Made by a program: the position numbers and the translations under genes
The notes under the pieces: model-generated
Told to the model about the DNA's origin: nothing
What the model saw: only the letters and a program-made list of their open reading frames with translations
The model's database searches: none
In this document: positions 1 through 33,841 of the stretch, piece by piece
Layout: every line of letters starts with the position of its first letter
How positions within the stretch are numbered: the stretch's first letter is position 1
IMG/VR virus record: IMGVR_UViG_3300048927_000217
Location: 1 to 33,841 of that record
Strand: one strand, 5' to 3'
Length of the DNA stretch: 33,841 nucleotides
Origin: a virus

Positions 1-235
1 CAGTCAGAAACGATGGTTCAACAGTAAGGTCGAGTATGAATGGGCGGCCTGAGCTGGCTTCCACTATTTTTGATAGTGGAACCTCTATGTTGGACTGCCG
101 CGGCCACATGCCTAGGGTAAATGTTGGGATGATCGAGTCTTTATGTTTTGGGCTTAGCTTCTGGTAGCCTAAGACTTCCGCTGGACGGCTTCTTAATGAA
201 GGGTAGTATTTGTACTGGTCAAATAAAATGCTCAC
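1..235 (-). CDS. Beta-family protein, N-terminal part (cut by window edge)
   Basis: This reading frame is open from a GTG at 235 to the left edge, giving 78 residues. An AGAGGA ribosome site lies inside the end of the preceding gene, whose stop (237-239) is one base upstream of the GTG, so the two are translationally coupled. The protein begins with a Tyr-rich segment (DQYKYYPSLRSR) followed by a KLSPKHKDSIIPTFTLG stretch. This resembles the opening of the phage beta protein family (PF14350), in which a short start leads into an I-x-P-hydrophobic strand. The family occurs in prophages and its function is unknown to me. As the third gene of the cI operon it would be expressed in the lysogen, so a role in lysogenic conversion or superinfection exclusion is possible. 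The family call is from memory of the pattern. The C-terminus is not in the window. Confidence 0.6.
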   Translation of the reverse strand, partial: MSILFDQYKYYPSLRSRPAEVLGYQKLSPKHKDSIIPTFTLGMWPRQSNIEVPLSKIVEASSGRPFILDLTVEPSFLT

Positions 236-236
236 G

Positions 237-716
237 CTATGCTTCCTCTGCTGACGTTTCATTTAGGCTTTCATTTGAGTCGAGTGCTATGTGGCGGTCT
301 ACCGCCTTGCGTTCTCGTTTCGTGGCTTGCTGTTTCACAGCTTTAGAAATTATGTATGCGTCTATCTCGATGATCTTTGCATTGGCATTTTCTAAGTCTA
401 TGATTTTGATCAGTAGGTCGGCATTCGCTGCGTGTGCTTCAGTAAGGCGGTTAATCAGCCGGAACAAGGGTATGGATAAAAATATACCGAGCAGTAATGC
501 TGCAAGCCAACCGGATATACCAAGCCATATAGACTTTTCGCCGCTAGTTAAAGTGTATATGGACAGCAATACACCTATAATACTTAGGGCAACTCCTATA
601 GCGCTGAGATAGAATCCTGTAGTTGATTCTCCGGTGAGCGGTTTTGAAATTTGCAATTTCTGCCTCCATGCATTTTGCTTTTTTCGCCTGCTTAGAAGTT
701 CATAGTTTTCGTGCAT
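237..716 (-). CDS. Two-TM membrane protein with cytoplasmic coiled coil, cI operon
   Basis: This is a 159-residue protein from the ATG at 716. An in-frame ATG at 740 would add eight residues but lies deep inside cI. Two hydrophobic segments occur at about residues 35-56 (FYLSAIGVALSIIGVLLSIY) and 63-84 (IWLGISGWLAALLLGIFLSIP). They are separated by a short polar loop and followed by a long charged helix with heptad-like spacing (RLINRLTEAHAANADLLIKI) and a basic-then-acidic tail. It overlaps the cI end by 17 bases and is followed at once by the beta-family gene, so it belongs to the repressor transcript. I recognise no named family. A membrane protein made in the lysogen fits superinfection exclusion or signalling to a partner, but this is inference. 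Base composition is more AT-rich than in the structural genes. Confidence 0.7.
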   Translation of the reverse strand: MHENYELLSRRKKQNAWRQKLQISKPLTGESTTGFYLSAIGVALSIIGVLLSIYTLTSGEKSIWLGISGWLAALLLGIFLSIPLFRLINRLTEAHAANADLLIKIIDLENANAKIIEIDAYIISKAVKQQATKRERKAVDRHIALDSNESLNETSAEEA

Positions 717-1587
717 TCCATACAAGCAATACTTTTGCATGTATAGTCAAATCGTCAGTGCGTGCCTGAAGATCTTTATTTTTTGGGTTGTCTGAAATTA
801 ACCACATATGATCTTCGTCTTTGCGCTGGAGCCGTTTAATCAATAAGTCTCCATGCCAAGAGAGTACATATACACCCTCGCCCTGATAATCGGTTACACC
901 GCGATCAACAATTACTGGATCTTTATCATTAATTGTGCCTTCCATGCTTTGCCCCCATCCAGTGATGATTGATAGGGCTTGGGCTGAGGTATACGTCACG
1001 CCTTTTTCGCGCAGCACATCTTCGCGGATGATCACGTTGCGGATGACTTCACTGTACTCCGCAGGCACCTGGCCATGACCCATAGCTGCCCGGATATCGT
1101 ACTGGGGAATAGAGATATCGCCATGTCCCGGCGCAACTTTGATCTGAGCCTGGCTGGGCGGTACTGCTTGAGTCGACGCATCGGAGAGGCTATCCGCAAC
1201 CGCTTTGGCAATTTTGTCCTGGGCTGTGGCATCCAGTGATTTGCCCCCATGTTTACGGAGCATCTCCAAGACTTTTTCGGCGGCAGTGCTCACGGTACTG
1301 CCACTGCTCTTAACCTGGACGGCCTGCATCTGGGCTAACTCAGCGGCAATTCGAGGACTAAATCGCTCTACAGGCTCTTGAAGCAGCCTGGATAACACGA
1401 CTGCGAATTTTGCATTCAAGGGGTTGGTGCCGTTCAGGTACATAGCCACGCCAGCCGGCGAGATATCAGCAGCCTCGGCCACTTTCGCTTGCGTCAGGCC
1501 GAGAGCGTTCTTTTTCTGCGTGAACAGCTTCTTGGCTGCCTCGCACTCGGCTTTCAGCTGGGGGGAGAGATCTTTCTTTTTCGTCAT
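700..1587 (-). CDS. cI: CI-type phage repressor (HTH plus S24 peptidase)
   Basis: The 295-residue repressor maintains lysogeny by binding the operators just upstream and is inactivated by RecA-stimulated self-cleavage. The N-terminal XRE helix-turn-helix lies at about residues 28-55 (LTQAKVAEAADISPAGVAMY). A linker follows, then a LexA/S24 domain from about residue 158. The catalytic serine is Ser214 in GWGQSMEG and the general-base lysine is Lys251 in LLIKRLQR. The likely cleavage area is around AAMGHG (167-172). The gene is transcribed leftward and heads an operon with the two-TM and beta-family genes. The ATG at 1587 has no recognisable Shine-Dalgarno, and the candidate P_RM start is only about 17 bases away. 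The message is therefore nearly leaderless, as for lambda cI made from P_RM. Operator layout and the cro gene opposite support the call. Confidence 0.93.
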   Translation of the reverse strand: MTKKKDLSPQLKAECEAAKKLFTQKKNALGLTQAKVAEAADISPAGVAMYLNGTNPLNAKFAVVLSRLLQEPVERFSPRIAAELAQMQAVQVKSSGSTVSTAAEKVLEMLRKHGGKSLDATAQDKIAKAVADSLSDASTQAVPPSQAQIKVAPGHGDISIPQYDIRAAMGHGQVPAEYSEVIRNVIIREDVLREKGVTYTSAQALSIITGWGQSMEGTINDKDPVIVDRGVTDYQGEGVYVLSWHGDLLIKRLQRKDEDHMWLISDNPKNKDLQARTDDLTIHAKVLLVWNARKL

Positions 1588-7347: not shown

Positions 7348-7728
7348 ATGCCGCCCAAGGCTAAACGTCCCTGTCGAGTGCCAATATGCTCCAGTAAAAC
7401 CAGTGATCGCCATGGTTACTGTAGTGCGCATGCCTCGCTCGCAATCGGTTGGAACAACCCGCGCCGTGGCACTGCTGAGCAGCGTGGCTATGACTGGGCA
7501 TGGCGCAAGCTTGCCAAGGCAGTACTCAAACGAGATCGCTATCTGTGCCAGTGCCATGACTGCAATGGTCGCCGACTGCCGGCAACAGAGGTTGACCATC
7601 GCATACCGAAGTTTGAAGGGGGAACGAATGACCCATCCAACCTGTTTGCCATCAATGAAAACTGCCACAAGTTCAAAACGGCGGCAGAGTCGGCACGGGC
7701 GCGGTCAGGCCGTCCGCCTGGCGCGTGA
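7348..7728 (+). CDS. HNH endonuclease
   Basis: The 126-residue protein has the HNH signature: EVDHRIPKFEGGTNDPSNLF followed by CHKFKT, giving the Asp-His pair, the central Asn and the final His. A CxxxxC...CSAH cluster near the N-terminus and a CQCHDC cluster before the active site could bind zinc. A GW-x-x-x-R segment (QRGYDWAWRKL) precedes the domain, as in HNH proteins beside phage terminases. In HK97-type phages such nucleases assist cos cleavage with the terminase, and this gene lies just upstream of both terminase genes. It starts two bases after the holin stop. Confidence 0.9.
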   Translation: MPPKAKRPCRVPICSSKTSDRHGYCSAHASLAIGWNNPRRGTAEQRGYDWAWRKLAKAVLKRDRYLCQCHDCNGRRLPATEVDHRIPKFEGGTNDPSNLFAINENCHKFKTAAESARARSGRPPGA

Positions 7729-7732
7729 GGCA

Positions 7733-8017
7733 ATGCGTTTGCGCGAAAGAGCGATCAAGCGCAGCCGAAGTACCGAGCTGATCTGCCATGGTGACTGGCA
7801 CCTGGATCGAGCGCTGTACTGCTGGAAAAACATTCATAAGCTTGGAATTCCAGAGCTGATTTCGCGTGTTCTACATGAGCTAGTGGCAGCAATTGACGCA
7901 TACATGCATGCCGCTGACGGAGTGCCAGAGCGTCCGTTCATGCATCTGGCTGCCTTAATCGATGGCGAGAATCTGCGGACAAAATTAGCGAAAAGTGGTC
8001 GAAATTTGGCCAAGTAA
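7733..8017 (+). CDS. Hypothetical 94-residue protein before the terminase
   Basis: The frame is open upstream into the HNH gene. I chose the ATG at 7733, just after the HNH stop, which has GAGG only two bases upstream. An alternative Met at 7628 would make a longer, overlapping product. The protein is helical with a basic start (MRLRERAIKRSR), a HGDWHLDRALYCWKNIHKLG segment, and a VLHELVAAIDAYMHAADG helix. It has no membrane segment or known motif. Residue composition looks coding. I do not recognise the family. Confidence 0.6.
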   Translation: MRLRERAIKRSRSTELICHGDWHLDRALYCWKNIHKLGIPELISRVLHELVAAIDAYMHAADGVPERPFMHLAALIDGENLRTKLAKSGRNLAK

Positions 8018-8132
8018 GGGGGCGGGGCAAAATCTCTACAGCTTTCGTCTCTCTCCACCGAGCGCCCAGCCTTTTTCACACACCCGCGAAATTAAAAAAA
8101 ATCGCATTCCAGAAAATCGGGAGGCCTGAACG
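8018..8132. other. Noncoding terminase leader, possible cos region
   Basis: About 115 bases without a gene separate the hypothetical protein from the small terminase. It opens with a G-rich stretch, then a pyrimidine-rich segment, then an AT-rich stretch with A7 before the GGGAGG ribosome site of the terminase gene. In HNH-P27 terminase phages the cohesive end site commonly lies in this interval. That placement is from general knowledge; no cut site can be read from the sequence. Confidence 0.35.
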
Positions 8133-8609
8133 ATGGGGCGACCCGCGAAACCTACCGCTCTCAAGCTGCTGCAGGGCAATCCCGGCAAGCGAAAACTCAA
8201 GAAGGACGGCCCTGCGCCGGCGCCGCTGGCGGAAACACCAGACGCCCCGGAGTGGCTGGGGGAATGGGCCGTTGAAATGTGGGGCGCCATTGCGCCGTGG
8301 TTGACCCAGGCCGGGATCATGACCCGCACCGACACGCACAACCTGGCGGTCTTTTGCGCCGCTTACGAGCGGTGGCGGTTGGCCGAGGAAGAAGTGGCCA
8401 GCAAGGGCATCACCGTCGTGGACGCCAAAGGTGTGCTCAAGAAGAACCCCGCCTGCACCGTGATCAACGAGGCGCTACGCCAGGTGGCCAGCTTCGGGGC
8501 AGCCCTCGGGCTGGACCCGGCCAGCCGTGCGCGCCTCATGGGCAGTGGCGGGCCGGAGAAACCAGAAAACCCGTTCATCGTGCTCAAAGGAGGGCGGGCC
8601 TCGAAGTGA
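8133..8609 (+). CDS. terS: Terminase small subunit, P27 family
   Basis: The 158-residue protein opens with MGRPAKPTALKLLQGNPGKR, the typical start of P27-family small terminases (PF05119). The middle contains EMWGAIAPWLTQAGIMTRTD and the end has FGAALGLDPASRARLMG. The small subunit recognises the packaging site and presents DNA to the large subunit encoded eight bases downstream. The ATG has GGGAGG nine bases upstream. Length is usual for the family. Confidence 0.95.
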   Translation: MGRPAKPTALKLLQGNPGKRKLKKDGPAPAPLAETPDAPEWLGEWAVEMWGAIAPWLTQAGIMTRTDTHNLAVFCAAYERWRLAEEEVASKGITVVDAKGVLKKNPACTVINEALRQVASFGAALGLDPASRARLMGSGGPEKPENPFIVLKGGRASK

Positions 8610-8617
8610 GTTAGGAC

Positions 8618-10354
8618 ATGGCCAGCTACCCGAACGTAAACGCGGCGAACAAGTACGCCCGCGACGTGGTGGCCGGCAAGATCCCGGCATGCAAGTACGT
8701 GCGTCGTGCCTGCCGGCTTCACCTGGATGACCTGGCCAAGTCGAAGAAGCGCGGCTTTCGCTGGGCCTTCGACCGCGACACGGCCGAGCAGGTGGCGGTG
8801 TTCATCCAGCTGCTGCCGCACGCCAAGGGCAAATGGGCGGCGCTGCGCGAGCTGATCAAGCTTGAGCCGTGGCAGCTGTTCATCTTCTGCAGCATCTTCG
8901 GTTGGGTCGACAAGAAGACCCGCCGCCGGCGGTACCGCGAGGTTTACATCGAGGTGCCGCGCAAGAACGGCAAGAGCGTGCTGGCCGCCGGCGTCGGCCT
9001 GTACATGCTGGTCATGGACGGAGAGTTCGGCGCTGAGGTGTATTGCGGTGCGACCACCGAGCGGCAGGCCTGGGAGGTGTTCAAGCCGGCGCGGCAGATG
9101 GTGCGACGCACCCCCGAGCTGGTCGAGGCCTTCGGCATCCAGGTCGCGGCGAAAAACCTGTCGGTGATCGGCGACGAAAGCAAGTTCGAACCCCTGATCG
9201 GCGACCCCGGCGACGGCCAGTCACCGAGCTGCGCCATCGTGGACGAGTTCCACGAACACACCTCGGCCGCGCTCTACGAAACCATGCTGACCGGCATGGG
9301 CGCCCGTGATCAGCCGATGATGTTCGCCATCACCACGGCGGGCTACAACATCGCCGGGCCGTGCTATCTGCAGCGCGCCCAGGTGATCGACAAGCTGGAA
9401 GGGACGGTACCGAACGACGAGTTGTTCGGGATCATCTACACGATTGACGAGGACGACGACTGGAAAGACCCGGCGGTCCTGCGCAAGGCTAACCCCAACT
9501 ACGGCGTCTCGGTCGGGGCTGAGTACCTGCTGAAACGCCAGGCCGACGCGACGCGTTACCCGTCACGGCAAAACGCGTTCAAGACCAAGCACCTCAACAT
9601 CTGGGTCAGCGCCAAAGAAGCCTGGCTGAACATGGCTGACTGGGAGGCGTGCGGCGACCCCACGCTGACCCTGGACCAGTTCCTGGGCCAGCGCTGTTGG
9701 ATCGGGATTGACCTGGCCAGTAAGTCGGATATCTGTGCGGTGTCGCTGGTGTTCCTGGACAAGGTGGAGCTGGTCCCGGGCAGCGGCAAGTGGGTCAACC
9801 GATGGACCATTTTCTGTAAGTCGTTCTTGCCCGAAGGCGCGATAGAGCGGGGCGGCCCCAACAAGGCCGCTTACGAGGCCTGGGCCAACGCTGGGTTGCT
9901 GGAGGTGTGCGACGGCGAGGAAATGGACTTCGACCTGGTGCGCGACATGGTGGGCGAATTCGCTGGCATGTTCGACGTGCAGGAAGTGGCCTACGACAAA
10001 TGGCGCGCCACCCAGCTGGCCCACCAGCTGCAGAAGGACGGCGCCGAGGTAGTCGAGATGGGCGGCGGCGTGGCCAGCATGAACCTGCCCATGCGCGAGC
10101 TGGAAGCGGCGCTGCTGTCCGGTCGCGTGCGCCACTGCAGCGACCCAGTATTGGCCTGGCAGGCCGGCAACGTCGTGGTGCGTCCGTTCAAGGGCTGCAT
10201 CACGCCGATGAAGGCCGACGAAGGCAAGACCGACATGCGCAAAATCGACGGCATTGTCGCCGCGCTGATGGCGATGAACCGCGCCATGGTCAGCGAATTT
10301 GAGCCGGAAGGGCTGTTGGCCAGCCTGACCGAAGACGACCTATTAGCTATGTGA
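8618..10354 (+). CDS. terL: Terminase large subunit
   Basis: The 578-residue packaging motor has an N-terminal ATPase with a Walker A-like loop at residues 113-120 (VPRKNGKS) and Walker B at 206-210 (AIVDE) followed by FHEH. The C-terminal nuclease begins near residue 360 with the metal-binding Asp365 in GIDLASKSD and continues through a YDKWRA segment to IDGIVAALMA near the end. This is the arrangement of the HK97/P27-type TerL_ATPase and nuclease pair. It cuts concatemeric DNA and pumps it into proheads through the portal encoded next. Full length, no break seen. Confidence 0.96.
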   Translation: MASYPNVNAANKYARDVVAGKIPACKYVRRACRLHLDDLAKSKKRGFRWAFDRDTAEQVAVFIQLLPHAKGKWAALRELIKLEPWQLFIFCSIFGWVDKKTRRRRYREVYIEVPRKNGKSVLAAGVGLYMLVMDGEFGAEVYCGATTERQAWEVFKPARQMVRRTPELVEAFGIQVAAKNLSVIGDESKFEPLIGDPGDGQSPSCAIVDEFHEHTSAALYETMLTGMGARDQPMMFAITTAGYNIAGPCYLQRAQVIDKLEGTVPNDELFGIIYTIDEDDDWKDPAVLRKANPNYGVSVGAEYLLKRQADATRYPSRQNAFKTKHLNIWVSAKEAWLNMADWEACGDPTLTLDQFLGQRCWIGIDLASKSDICAVSLVFLDKVELVPGSGKWVNRWTIFCKSFLPEGAIERGGPNKAAYEAWANAGLLEVCDGEEMDFDLVRDMVGEFAGMFDVQEVAYDKWRATQLAHQLQKDGAEVVEMGGGVASMNLPMRELEAALLSGRVRHCSDPVLAWQAGNVVVRPFKGCITPMKADEGKTDMRKIDGIVAALMAMNRAMVSEFEPEGLLASLTEDDLLAM

Positions 10355-29044: not shown

Positions 29045-30193
29045 ATGAGATTGGTTTCAGTTGAATTTTCCGAGAACGTTGGTCGAGATAGGGAGTGGGT
29101 TCTTCGTGAGCTTGCTCTTGGTCAGAAAAATCTAATAGTAGGTAAAAACTCTACAGGGAAAACAAGAACGCTTCATGTGTTGGCAAGTTTGGCTCGTGTA
29201 CTATCGACGTCGCAAAACGTTCCGCCTAGGTCAGGGAATTATATTTGTAAGTGGGAGGCTGAGGGAGGGGTTGAGAATAGGTATGAATATTCCGTGGAAG
29301 ACTCTATTATTCTCTCCGAGAACTTGATTGTCTCTGGTGTCAACTATATGACGAGAGATAAGGATGGGGTGGGAATGATTTTGTTTTCCGCAATGGGTGA
29401 TAATGGCTGCTCGATGCCATTTCAGACTCCTTTAAACGAGTTTGCCATTGTGAAGCGGCGAGATAAGCTGCAGCATCCTTTTATTGAGCCGCTATATGAA
29501 TGGGCTGCTGCGGTTAGACATTATTTCTTTGGGTCCAGCTTTGGTAAGGATCATTTTTTTGTATATAACCCAATGGGAAGTAAGATTGATGAGCGCGATG
29601 GTAATCAAGTTGTAGGTGTGTTTAGGCGTGCCAAAGAAGATTTTGGTAGTACCTATGTCGACGCGGTATTGAAGGATATGAGGAGCCTAGGATACGATCT
29701 TGAAGGTGTAGACGTAGCCTTTCCTCATAGTATGACTGGGCTCGGCTTCCCTACAGAGGCTAACTCTATAGTGGTGCTAGAAAAAGGAGTTAGGGGGTGG
29801 ATTGATCAGATTGTTATGTCTCAGGGGATGTTTAGGTCTCTAGCCTTAATGGCGCATGTCAATTATTTGATATTAAGGCGTGCTAGTACTTGTATAATTG
29901 TTGATGATATTGGTGAGGGTCTGGACTTTGAGCGTTCATGCCTGCTTATAAATCTTCTGCGAGCGAAGTGTGAAGGCTCTAGCTTGCAGGTGATAATGTC
30001 GACGAATGACAGATTTGTGATGGATGAAGTCCCGCTTAAAGAGTGGACCGTGCTGGAGCGTAAAGGGTGTGTAGTTTCTGTTCGTAATTATTCTAACTCT
30101 GCAGAAGCTTTCGATAGGTTCAGGTTTACAGGTCTAAGTAATTTTTCATTCTTTGAGATGGATTTTCTTAGTGAGGGTGATGCGGATGCGTAA
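29045..30193 (+). CDS. ABC/AAA-type ATPase of a two-gene defence-like module
   Basis: The 382-residue protein starts at an ATG with AAGGA upstream. Walker A is at residues 33-40 (GKNSTGKT), right after the N-terminal strand as in OLD-, Rec- and SMC-like ATPases. An ABC-signature-like SQGMFRS lies at 259-265, and Walker B CIIVDDIGEGLD at 283-294 with acidic residues Asp287, Asp288 and Glu291. A following LQVIMSTNDRFVMDE segment matches the switch strand and H-loop region of AAA_15/AAA_21 proteins. It overlaps a TOPRIM-like gene by eight bases. ATPase-TOPRIM pairs of this kind include PARIS, OLD-like and AbiL-like systems. Composition is strongly AT-rich compared with the tail genes, a sign of separate origin. 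I infer an anti-phage sensor; the exact family is not fixed. Confidence 0.8.
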   Translation: MRLVSVEFSENVGRDREWVLRELALGQKNLIVGKNSTGKTRTLHVLASLARVLSTSQNVPPRSGNYICKWEAEGGVENRYEYSVEDSIILSENLIVSGVNYMTRDKDGVGMILFSAMGDNGCSMPFQTPLNEFAIVKRRDKLQHPFIEPLYEWAAAVRHYFFGSSFGKDHFFVYNPMGSKIDERDGNQVVGVFRRAKEDFGSTYVDAVLKDMRSLGYDLEGVDVAFPHSMTGLGFPTEANSIVVLEKGVRGWIDQIVMSQGMFRSLALMAHVNYLILRRASTCIIVDDIGEGLDFERSCLLINLLRAKCEGSSLQVIMSTNDRFVMDEVPLKEWTVLERKGCVVSVRNYSNSAEAFDRFRFTGLSNFSFFEMDFLSEGDADA

Positions 30194-30899
30194 GATTGCA
30201 TTTTTCGTTGAAGGGACTTCGGAAATGCTTTTCTTAGAGCGCTTGATTGAGGAAGTAGCCAACGCGAAAGAAATTCTAATTGAGAAGATGAGGATTCGAG
30301 GGGGTGGGAAGAGCGGGAAGCACCCTAAAACTATATCTATTGTTGATGGAAAGGTAGCACTTGGGTCTGAGCAATTTTATGTGATGATAGTTGATTGTGG
30401 TGGCGATCACTTGGTTGGTCAGCGAATAAGGGAAGAGCATAAAAGACTAACCGATGATGGTTATGAACGAATAATTGGGGTGAGAGACATTCGCCCGAGT
30501 TTTACCCGTGAGGAAGCTCCTTTGTTGCTTCAGGGTATGGAGGGTGTTGTAGATAAGGCGCTCGCCCCTGTTATATTTGTACTTTCAATGATGGAGGTTG
30601 AAGCGTGGTTTTTGGCTGAGTATTCCCACTATGAAAGAATCCACCCGGAGCTTACTCCTCAAGTTATTTTGGAATCATTGGGCTTCGATCCGAGAATATT
30701 AATTCCTGGGGAGCGAGATTATCCATCGTCTGATTTGCAGCAATCTTATGCGCTTAGGGGGATTGTTTATGAAAAGTCCTCTGTTCAGAATACTATAGAT
30801 AGTTTGGATATGGCTTATGTTTACACTGAGCTGCCTGAGAAAGTCCCAGAGATTGCAGTTCTTGCTCAGGCTGTGGACGATTTCTTAGTTGTGAAGTAG
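30186..30899 (+). CDS. TOPRIM/DUF4276-like protein, partner of the ATPase
   Basis: The 237-residue protein is read from the ATG at 30186, with GAGGG eight bases upstream. An ATG at 30180 has its site too close. It starts RKIAFFVEGTSEMLFLERLI, the TOPRIM opening with conserved Glu9. The second acidic motif is VMIVDCGGDH with Asp70 and Asp74. A VLSMMEVEAWFLAE segment matches the E-x-EAW-x-LAE signature of DUF4276. TOPRIM proteins use these acidic residues to hold metal for nicking or cutting nucleic acid. Its start is inside the end of the ATPase gene, so the two are co-translated. The AT-rich bases are shared with the ATPase gene. Likely the effector of the pair (inference). Confidence 0.8.
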   Translation: MRKIAFFVEGTSEMLFLERLIEEVANAKEILIEKMRIRGGGKSGKHPKTISIVDGKVALGSEQFYVMIVDCGGDHLVGQRIREEHKRLTDDGYERIIGVRDIRPSFTREEAPLLLQGMEGVVDKALAPVIFVLSMMEVEAWFLAEYSHYERIHPELTPQVILESLGFDPRILIPGERDYPSSDLQQSYALRGIVYEKSSVQNTIDSLDMAYVYTELPEKVPEIAVLAQAVDDFLVVK

Positions 30900-30978
30900 G
30901 TCAGTGAAACCCGCTTTATTCTTAAGCTTCAGCATCGGGCTCATGGGTCTACAGGTTTTTGTGCGCTAATTTGGCAGG

Positions 30979-30994
30979 AAGCTTCGAGAAGCTT
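30979..30994. repeat. Palindrome downstream of the TOPRIM gene
   Basis: AAGCTTC and GAAGCTT flank a GA centre, a perfect 7-bp inverted repeat. The following sequence has only a short T4 stretch, so it could be a weak terminator or a protein site. Confidence 0.45.
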
Positions 30995-31204
30995 GCGATG
31001 CTTTTATCATTGCACCTTAAGGGCTCGTAAATAGGGAACTCTAAGGCTGCGAGATTGGTTTCATTTTGAATGGTTAGGGTGGCTGGCAGCTCAATGCGGA
31101 TTCATGTCAGATCGGGTTGCTCACGTATGTGCCTTCAGAACTTTGGGAGAGGTACGATCCAAGATGGATGGTCGTCGGCAAAACGCCTGGTAGTGGGCGG
31201 AAGC

Positions 31205-31280
31205 CAGTTCCAAAACGGAGATTGCGATCCTTGTAAAATGCGGTCTTCAGCAGAACATTTTTATTTTTGTTTTGGAACTG
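31205..31280. repeat. 12-bp inverted repeat pair beside the att core
   Basis: CAGTTCCAAAAC at 31205-31216 has an exact reverse complement, GTTTTGGAACTG, at 31269-31280. The 52-base gap is AT-rich at its right end. The pair is 40-115 bases from the att core, so it may be arm-type sites for the integrase or sites for its excision partner. The repeat is seen directly; the function is inference. Confidence 0.5.
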
Positions 31281-31320
31281 ATTGTGTTGTGCAGGCCGCA
31301 TTGGCGGGAGACTTATATAT

Positions 31321-31380
31321 CGGTCTTGAAAACCGTCGATGGGCAACTATCCTAGAGTTCGAATCTCTACGCTTCCGCCA
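31321..31380 (+). other. att core: 3' part of tRNA-Ser(UGA)
   Basis: The segment begins at the anticodon arm (CGGTCTTGAAAACCG, anticodon TGA), continues with the long variable arm of a class II tRNA and a T arm with a perfect TAGAG/CTCTA stem around TTCGAAT, and ends CGCTTCCGCCA. The D arm and the 5' acceptor strand (expected GGAAGCG) are absent upstream. This is what a phage attP, or a right-hand att junction, looks like when the integrase uses the 3' end of a host tRNA-Ser gene: integration rebuilds the tRNA. The lambda-type int gene points towards it from the right. It is not a functional tRNA gene in this arrangement. Confidence 0.8.
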
Positions 31381-31385
31381 CATTC

Positions 31386-31411
31386 AAAGCCCTGGTTTTT
31401 CAGGGCTTTTT
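31386..31411. terminator. Intrinsic terminator between att core and int
   Basis: AAAGCCCTG pairs with CAGGGCTTT, with a G-T-rich loop and T-run after it. It would serve the rebuilt tRNA after integration, and its reverse reading has AAA-flanked symmetry that could also stop int transcripts coming from the right. Confidence 0.75.
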
Positions 31412-31491
31412 GCGTTTTTGGGGCATAGTAAAACTACCCATGGGAACACCCTTGGGAATGGTTTGTTGTGGAAGCGCTTCCGAAACTTTCC

Positions 31492-32553
31492 CTATTTGGT
31501 GGGTTTCGCCAGGGCTCCAACTCGGCGATACACCCGCTCTGTGATGTCGCCCTTGGTATGGCCGAGCAGCAGACTGGCGTGGTCAACGTCGGTGATTTCC
31601 GAGGCTGCTTTCGGGCGAATGTCGCGGAACTGGAATTGGCTGATACGGCCGGCCAGCACCGGGTCACCTGCGGCGACCGCTTCCTTCACGGCTTCCTCCC
31701 GGGCATCGTCCCATCGGTGGCGAAGCATCGGTGCCGTGACACGTTTGCCGTTATCAGTCAGCAGCAGGTATGGCGAGCCATGCGGAGCATTGCGCTCCAG
31801 GATCTTTCTTATCAGCGCACCCAAGCTGCTTTCTACTCCGTCCACCTCAAGCATGATCCGTAGCTTCTTTTGGGTCTTCTTCTGCTTTACGCCGAGGGCT
31901 TTGTCCTCGATGTCGTCCCTCCTCATCACCAGCACGTCCGCCGGACGCTGGCCCGTCAAATACGCCAAATCCATGGCATCCTTCAGTTCGCCCACCGCTT
32001 TCGCGTAAACCGCGTTCCAGATCGCATCGTTAGCGTAGAAGTCTCGCGGCATCTCCTTGTTCTTGCGCACGCCCTGGCACGGATTCTCGTTGGTTGTGAG
32101 CCCCCATTCCCGGGCTATGTTGAAGATGTGCGATAGGGTGGCGATCTCGCGATTCGCCCTGACTGGGGCGGTTCTGGCATCGCGATACTTCGCCACATGC
32201 GCAGGGGTGATGCCGTCGATTGGGGCCTTCTCGAAGTAGTTTCGCAACTGGCGTATCTCGGCCAGGTTGTCCTTCTGTGTGCGCGGCGCCTTCTTCGGAA
32301 TGATGTCGCTCTCGTAGCGGTCGAAGATGGCACCCATGGTGACCAGGTCCTTGGGCTTCTCCTTCGCTTCAAGTTCTGCCCACTTCAGTCTGGCAAGGCT
32401 CAAGTCGGTGCCCAGCGTTACCTCTTTGCCCGACTTGTCCCGGTAGTAGTAGCTAATCCATTCCTTGTCGGGTTTTTTCTTGCTCTTACTGGTCCGCTTT
32501 CGTCGGTACACACCCGGAGGCAAGTCCCTGTTTTCGGTCTTCCTAGGACGCAT
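31492..32553 (-). CDS. int: Lambda-type phage integrase
   Basis: The 353-residue tyrosine recombinase has an N-terminal arm-binding domain like that of lambda Int (NRDLPPGVYRR, then WISYYYRDKSGKEVTLGTDL). A core-binding domain (about 72-165) and the catalytic domain follow: Arg203 (LTGQRPADV), a Lys-rich beta-hairpin at 223-230, box II FRDIR with Arg313 but Arg310 in place of the usual His, His332 (LLLGHT) and nucleophile Tyr342 (ERVYRRV). It is transcribed towards the att core 110 bases away, with the DUF4224 gene just upstream, so this is the integrase that uses the tRNA-Ser site. The second recombinase (3997-5295) belongs to a different subfamily. Confidence 0.93.
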   Translation of the reverse strand: MRPRKTENRDLPPGVYRRKRTSKSKKKPDKEWISYYYRDKSGKEVTLGTDLSLARLKWAELEAKEKPKDLVTMGAIFDRYESDIIPKKAPRTQKDNLAEIRQLRNYFEKAPIDGITPAHVAKYRDARTAPVRANREIATLSHIFNIAREWGLTTNENPCQGVRKNKEMPRDFYANDAIWNAVYAKAVGELKDAMDLAYLTGQRPADVLVMRRDDIEDKALGVKQKKTQKKLRIMLEVDGVESSLGALIRKILERNAPHGSPYLLLTDNGKRVTAPMLRHRWDDAREEAVKEAVAAGDPVLAGRISQFQFRDIRPKAASEITDVDHASLLLGHTKGDITERVYRRVGALAKPTK

Positions 32554-32554
32554 T

Positions 32555-32797
32555 TCACCTCACCTTCGAAATATCAGGTGTCCACGCAGGGACTACAGGT
32601 GGTGGTGACGCCGTTGGCATTACTCCAAGGCTCATGCCCAGTTTCATACGAACGTAATGGCGGCCAACCAGTGGGCGCCCGCTGCGGGTTTCAACGAATA
32701 CCCAGCCACGTTCCTCTAGCCAGCGACGCTGATATCCCCTGGCCTTATAGCCAGTCAGCTCGGCTAGCTCTTCGTCCGAAAGAATCTCGGTTTGCAT
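32555..32797 (-). CDS. DUF4224 protein, probable excisionase
   Basis: The 80-residue protein begins MQTEILSDEELAELTGYKAR and has GYQRRWLEERGWVFVETRSG, then GRPLVGRHYVRMKLG. This is the DUF4224 pattern (PF13986), found in phages directly upstream of int. Members have a helix-turn-helix-like start and are regarded as excisionase or directionality factors. The stop is one base before the int start region, so the two are co-transcribed. The Pro-rich C-terminus is probably disordered. Confidence 0.8.
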   Translation of the reverse strand: MQTEILSDEELAELTGYKARGYQRRWLEERGWVFVETRSGRPLVGRHYVRMKLGMSLGVMPTASPPPVVPAWTPDISKVR

Positions 32798-32834
32798 GTG
32801 ATGGTCTCCACGCCGCCGGTGGCGGCAGGTTGTG

Positions 32835-33212
32835 TCAGGCCGTAGCCTGGGCGATGGTCTGCTCGAAGCGCGACGCCAGTTCGGCGTTTACCTCGGCCTT
32901 GGCCAGGCTGTCGGTGGTGGCCTTGGCGCGGTGCAGGGTTTCGTACTTGCGCAGCTGGGCGGCCGCCTCAACCAAGTCGGCCAGGAGGTTCGGTGCCTGG
33001 GCGATCAGCCGGGCATTCGCTCTACGCACATCCAAGGCGAGCTCAACAAGCCCAACCTCGGTGAATGTCATTGCATCGCCACAGTCGGCGATCATCCAGC
33101 CGTCAGTTGGGAGTGCTTTCACGCCGTCGCCGCTGTCGGCACCCAGGCCGGTGAAAACCTCGGTCTCGTTCAGGGCTTCCCAGGGGCCTGGGGTGTGCTT
33201 GTGTTTCGTCAT
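32835..33212 (-). CDS. Conserved phage protein of unknown role
   Basis: The 125-residue protein starts at the ATG at 33212 with GGAGAG upstream; the longer frame to 33311 gives a Ser/Arg-rich out-of-family lead. It reads MTKHKHTPGPWEALNE, then a TDGWMIADCGDAM strand, and an ANARLIAQAPNLLADLVEAA helix. This HTPGPW...NARLIAxAPxLL combination is widespread in phage genomes without a known function. It lies 38 bases before the DUF4224 gene in the same direction, so it is part of the leftward operon. Confidence 0.8.
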   Translation of the reverse strand: MTKHKHTPGPWEALNETEVFTGLGADSGDGVKALPTDGWMIADCGDAMTFTEVGLVELALDVRRANARLIAQAPNLLADLVEAAAQLRKYETLHRAKATTDSLAKAEVNAELASRFEQTIAQATA

Positions 33213-33362
33213 GGCAATATCTCTCCATGCCCGCGGATATCGGCAGGCTTGAATTGTTGAGGGGGAGGGAGAAAAGCGCGATGCTTCGTTGTCAACATGG
33301 CGTAGTGCCACTCATCCTTGATGTGGTGGTCACTTTTTGCGTTACGCGTTTAGGGGCTAAAA

Positions 33363-33608
33363 ATGCCTAATTCAGATCAAAAATACCGTGCGTACCAGCT
33401 GCTACGACAGCTGGACACCGCAACATCTTCAATCATGAATCAAGTCGCTTACGGCCAGATCGGCGGCCCCCTGTGGGGGGAGGCCCTGCTGGTCCAGCAG
33501 AAGGCGTTTGACGACTGGGCAGATTATGCGAAGACGCTGGCCACGCTTGAGATTCTGGCATGCAGTGCTCCGCCATCCGGGGATCACAAATACCAAAGCG
33601 AGGCTTAA
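33363..33608 (+). CDS. Hypothetical 81-residue protein
   Basis: This is the only rightward candidate in the right-hand leftward operon. It begins MPNSDQKYRAYQLLRQLDTA and has an IGGPLWGEALLVQQKAFDDW stretch and a short polar end. It lacks a clear ribosome site. A minus-strand frame over the same bases (33429-33623) has a less protein-like composition. It is divergent from the 32835-33212 gene, with 150 bases between them. Family not recognised. Confidence 0.5.
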   Translation: MPNSDQKYRAYQLLRQLDTATSSIMNQVAYGQIGGPLWGEALLVQQKAFDDWADYAKTLATLEILACSAPPSGDHKYQSEA

Positions 33609-33650
33609 GCCATGCTTGGCCAAGTCGTTACCTCTGAATATCGGTGACCT

Positions 33651-33671
33651 AGGTGATGAGATGCATCACCT
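33651..33671. repeat. Inverted repeat between convergent genes
   Basis: AGGTGATG (33651-33658) and CATCACCT (33664-33671) flank a five-base loop, an 8-bp perfect stem. It sits between the ends of a rightward and a leftward gene. There is no T-run, so it is not a clear intrinsic terminator. Confidence 0.5.
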
Positions 33672-33841
33672 CTAGGGGGCTGCTGGACTGCTCCTAGCCA
33701 TGCAAATTTGGAGCTCATATCCATCATTCCAGAACGCGGAGCTTGCCGCTGCCTCGGGTTCGTTCGGGGCGAGCTGGCGCTCGTTGCCGGCCTGCAGCTG
33801 GCTGTCTGGGATGCAGCTGATGCCGATCTGTCTGCCGCTGG
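33672..33841 (-). CDS. C-terminal part of an unknown leftward protein (cut by window edge)
   Basis: An open frame enters from the right edge and stops at 33672-33674. Its last residues include IGISCIPDSQLQAGNERQLA and an EAAASSAFWNDGYELQICMA segment before the stop, with coding-like composition and no internal stop over about 55 codons. It continues the leftward direction of int, the DUF4224 gene and the 32835-33212 gene. No family recognised. The start lies beyond the window. Confidence 0.6.
   Translation of the reverse strand, partial: SGRQIGISCIPDSQLQAGNERQLAPNEPEAAASSAFWNDGYELQICMARSSPAAP

Follow-up and report, generated by a model that had tools for sequence, protein, structure and literature searches.

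The stretch of DNA analysed here, referred to as the window, is a complete IMG/VR record of 33,841 bp that is classed as linear and contains no duplicated module. Its features are listed in Table 1. Toward the right end, the 3' part of a tRNA-Ser(UGA) gene is followed by int, a DUF4224 excisionase gene and a phrog_1273 gene, all on the minus strand. The original prediction had described an att core formed by the 3' part of tRNA-Ser and followed by int, a xis-like gene and further leftward genes; this order was confirmed, and the true start of the core (31322) lies one base inside the coordinate first given. A cI operon leaving the left edge in the leftward direction had also been described, and the repressor gene, a gop-like ORF and a fragment of a Beta gene were indeed all found to read leftward and to run off the left end of the window. 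That end falls mid-gene, whereas many isolate prophage records are cut right after int. Two features had been missed: a second tyrosine recombinase gene and the gop-beta locus that is cut by the left edge.

Table 1 Features of the window relevant to its integration site, packaging and ends
Feature	Position	Strand	Basis
Beta gene of the gop-beta locus, N-terminal quarter, cut by the left end of the record	2..262	-	PF14350 profile 1-72 of 342; PADLOC beta 1.4e-29
gop-like gene	237..740	-	weak PADLOC gop match 4.6e-4; adjoins complete Beta genes in L069 and L071
cI-type repressor (HTH + S24 peptidase)	700..1587	-	PF00717 1.4e-19; phrog_4
Second tyrosine recombinase, 432 aa	3997..5295	+	PF00589 4.9e-21; away from any att site
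Packaging module: HNH endonuclease (7348-7728), TerS (8133-8609), TerL (8618-10354)	7348..10354	+	phrogs and Pfam
attP left arm, accessory-gene side	31206..31321	.	inverted AGTTCCAAAAC (31206-31216) and GTTTTGGAACT (31269-31279)
att core, 3' 60 bp of tRNA-Ser(UGA)	31322..31381	+	anticodon stem to one base past CCA
int, phage tyrosine-family integrase, 353 aa	31492..32553	-	PF00589 1.8e-9; phrog_1 1.1e-37
Excisionase (DUF4224)	32555..32797	-	PF13986 1.3e-16; phrog_4764 8.5e-31
Early-left gene, function unassigned (phrog_1273)	32835..33311	-	reads leftward

When aligned with complete Pseudomonas tRNA-Ser(UGA) genes, the core is identical at 60 of 60 positions. The homology stops sharply at GGTCTTGAAAACC, on the 5' side of the anticodon stem, and the upstream sequence diverges. 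No tRNA was detected in the window by ARAGORN, and the 5' half of tRNA-Ser is therefore absent. Such a match directly adjoining a lambda-type int excludes chance; identity of the core with a host tRNA 3' end, next to int, is the arrangement of a phage tyrosine integrase that uses a tRNA gene. The int product has a tyrosine recombinase domain with a conserved active site, in which R203, R313, H332 and Y342 are invariant in an eight-sequence alignment and R310 stands where many family members carry His. The two inverted elements in the left arm are candidate arm-type Int sites, and a GTTTTGGAA(T/C)CGATT-like motif is found at the corresponding position of the left arm in seven relatives. An exact search of IMG/VR with the window's junction of left arm and core returned no other contig, and no paper was found on this phage or this Pseudomonas site.

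Several variants of the core were also observed. In four loci (L015, L017, L019 and L023) the truncated cores share only about 23 bp (TTCGAATCTCTACGCTTCCGCCA) and lie beside relatives of the window int, which suggests a different type of element that targets this tRNA through a shorter core; these loci were left out of the count of same junctions. L045 has just the final part of the core. The attR of prophage 2897957997_000002 (L121, 17080-17262) agrees with the core over its first 46 bp alone; about 50 bp beyond it is a second, distinct tRNA-Ser(UGA)-like gene, and the cores of four further genomes have the same GTTCTTATC ending.

Comparison with relatives allowed the different forms of the site to be distinguished. 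Of the related loci, 19 extend to the site, and in these a complete tRNA lies about 115 bp past int; this is the normal attL, with the tRNA restored beside int in the lysogens. AUS531phi is an integrated form of this kind, with int and a complete tRNA-Ser beside host tus genes. The attR form, seen in several genomes with two cores, is a truncated core that has no int in the adjoining 3 kb. A normal attL was ruled out for the window, in which the tRNA is incomplete, and the argument that the missing 5' half excludes such a site is upheld by the 19 loci. The closest parallels in layout are the circular records of the Pseudomonas phages Fyn8, PA8 (Hollowayvirus) and VB_EV13, whose host is P. aeruginosa. 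In these free circular forms the attP is the same truncated tRNA-Ser(UGA) core, with int 3' of it on the opposite strand, a small gene next in the excisionase position, and the lysis and accessory genes on the other side. The matches, from a search with window positions 30000-33841, are limited to the att/int region, and the VB_EV13 int is about 58% identical in amino acids to that of the window. Judged by its gene order, the window arrangement is the attP form.

The contig therefore most likely shows the free, circular gene order of a phage, and this would be the reason that int lies just past a broken tRNA-Ser. The truncated tRNA-Ser(UGA) would be the phage's own attP core, and the free form, excised or replicating, would have its opening point in the early-left region. 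We infer that Int would recombine the core with the host tRNA gene within the anticodon-stem/loop region. The phage-borne 3' end would restore the host tRNA on integration, leaving a complete tRNA gene beside int (attL) and a truncated copy beyond the accessory genes (attR).

Whether the two sides of the junction belong to one phage was assessed from single prophages, which are integrated and carry int at one end. Prophage 2773857665_000006 matches the window at 95.4% DNA identity in int and 94.8% in the late genes, and P. peradeniyensis BW13M1 element B at 95.2% and 92.0%; both encode ints 98% identical in amino acids to that of the window. Prophage 2897957997_000002 has 94.1% identity in the late genes, and the end of its record is 99.2% identical to window positions 32835-33841 and runs on into the body of that prophage. 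Identity in the late genes, which were compared for ten elements fetched in full, is thus 92-95% over about 18 kb in these three. Overall their late, replication and int (or right-edge) modules are about 90-99% identical in DNA to those of the window; their accessory cargo and their immunity/early-left regions differ from it. Among 44 full-length int relatives, only 2773857665_000006 and BW13M1 element B exceed 87% DNA identity, the next best reaching 86.7%. Were the int side that of an unrelated neighbour, no more than about 2 of 44 draws should show this concordance.

The original prediction had offered either a circular map or two prophages in tandem at one tRNA-Ser gene. Both occur at this site, but since the body and the int side find their matches in the same single prophages, the attP of one phage is favoured over a tandem junction. 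The core was sought in 399 Pseudomonas genomes and was present in 92; among 14 truncated copies examined in 12 genomes, int follows four, in 3 of the 12. The best-resolved case is BW13M1, in which elements A, B and C are arrayed with truncated junction cores at 500.4 and 539.4 kb and a complete tRNA at 587.8 kb. Isolate record 2778261711_000004, with two ints, is likewise a tandem at tRNA-Ser, and further tandem junctions are present in G357 and G108. As in the window, int directly follows a truncated core in BW13M1 and 2778261711_000004, and these real junctions show how the body and accessory genes of one prophage could have been joined to the int-xis and right edge of a different neighbour at one tRNA-Ser(UGA). 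Such an origin is nevertheless unlikely for the window. In BW13M1 and 2778261711_000004, different phages flank the junctions, whereas the two sides agree in the window. In the BW13M1 array the neighbours' ints are 61% and 73% identical to the window int, compared with 98% for element B. The neighbours' bodies likewise differ from that of element B, and nothing similar to the window late genes is present in element C.

A double lysogen with two copies of the same phage head to tail, sampled across their junction, would be indistinguishable from attP in sequence and would show equal concordance of int and body. Superinfection immunity disfavours double lysogeny by the same phage, and no example was seen among the junctions examined, so that this origin is highly improbable. 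The junction could also have been created during assembly, if the core and a similar terminator at attR and attL of one prophage had been collapsed and the assembler had walked from attR into int. The identity between core copies spans at least 60 bp and their 3' flanks are alike, so that the repeat could exceed a short k-mer; most assemblers, however, rely on longer k-mers and read pairs. An artefact of this type is quite unlikely, and its product would still be the attP sequence of that phage.

The contig thus probably holds about 85% of a single temperate Pseudomonas phage genome in free gene order, opened within Beta and lacking about 5-6 kb. Points against this reading are the lack of end overlap and of a continuous Beta gene, the related tandem arrays with the same junction, and the divergence of the immunity region. 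The end-to-end overlap that had been proposed as a check for a circle was not found, there being no terminal overlap of at least 8 bp in the record. Direct joining of the record ends was also rejected, as no plausible uninterrupted Beta frame runs across the join; the missing sequence must therefore include some of Beta at least. Both ends of the window nevertheless fall within one element in three relatives. The single prophages 2773857665_000006, BW13M1 element B and 2897957997_000002, which join the ends, leave 5.3, 5.8 and 5.9 kb unaccounted for, and from this interval a full genome of about 39-40 kb is predicted. The distance between the two cores of BW13M1 element B, 39.0 kb, is close to this value. 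Host genes directly beyond position 33841 had been named as a finding that would speak against a phage map. Host DNA there is unsupported: in the nearest relative, phage early genes and a Beta gene come next.

Complete Beta copies are present in L069, L071 and L072, and Beta adjoins cI in 2897957997_000002, L069 and L071, which is where the left end of the window breaks off. Two of the three closest single prophages do not share the immunity region (1-1650), and the third shares only part of it. Because the early-left region differs most between relatives, the break in the contig may reflect strain variation there.

The packaging genes bear on the physical form of the DNA. TerS belongs to the Terminase_4/P27 type and TerL matches PF03354/PF20441. 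HK97 is a cos phage, and an HNH protein of such kind promotes cos cleavage (PMC9410871). The HNH-TerS-TerL module of the window resembles that of HK97, and a cos site would be expected between HNH and TerS, with virion DNA ends near 7.7-8.1 kb if packaging is cos-type. In that case a contig that runs through cos and opens in Beta would point to circular or concatemeric DNA, or to cohesive ends joined in the library. Given its likeness to HK97, the module gives no sign of headful permutation of the virion DNA. The description of the map as circularly permuted is accordingly best taken to refer only to the opening point of the assembly.

The second tyrosine recombinase gene follows a P-like helicase loader gene and lies upstream of the packaging module, a place between replication and packaging genes that is kept in Pseudomonas and Vibrio phages. 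Relatives occur in 205 phage records (Pseudomonas, Vibrio, Aeromonas and others), with R243, HxxR (H333, R336), H359 and Y368 conserved in five, and Solano encodes one besides a normal int. No att site was seen beside the gene. It is conceivable, though doubtful, that the product is a dedicated multimer or Holliday-junction resolvase separating concatemers or tandem units alongside Int. Beside attP, positions 29045-30899 hold a two-gene cargo, an AAA ATPase with AbiLi/AriA-like matches and a protein with weak HEC-01B matches; from these matches, an anti-phage defence pair is possible.

Most probably, then, the site is an ordinary attP, and the phage adds a new member to a known kind of temperate Pseudomonas phages. 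A free gene order opened at an arbitrary point is an ordinary situation and most likely the one seen here, prophages stacked at the same tRNA fitting the contig less well. Tandem arrays, common at this Pseudomonas tRNA-Ser with 3 of the 12 genomes examined, can also give rise to junctions of the attP type in viral contigs. For the present contig, the attP reading gives a likely reason for int standing on the "wrong" side: a phage in its free gene order, not an odd prophage.
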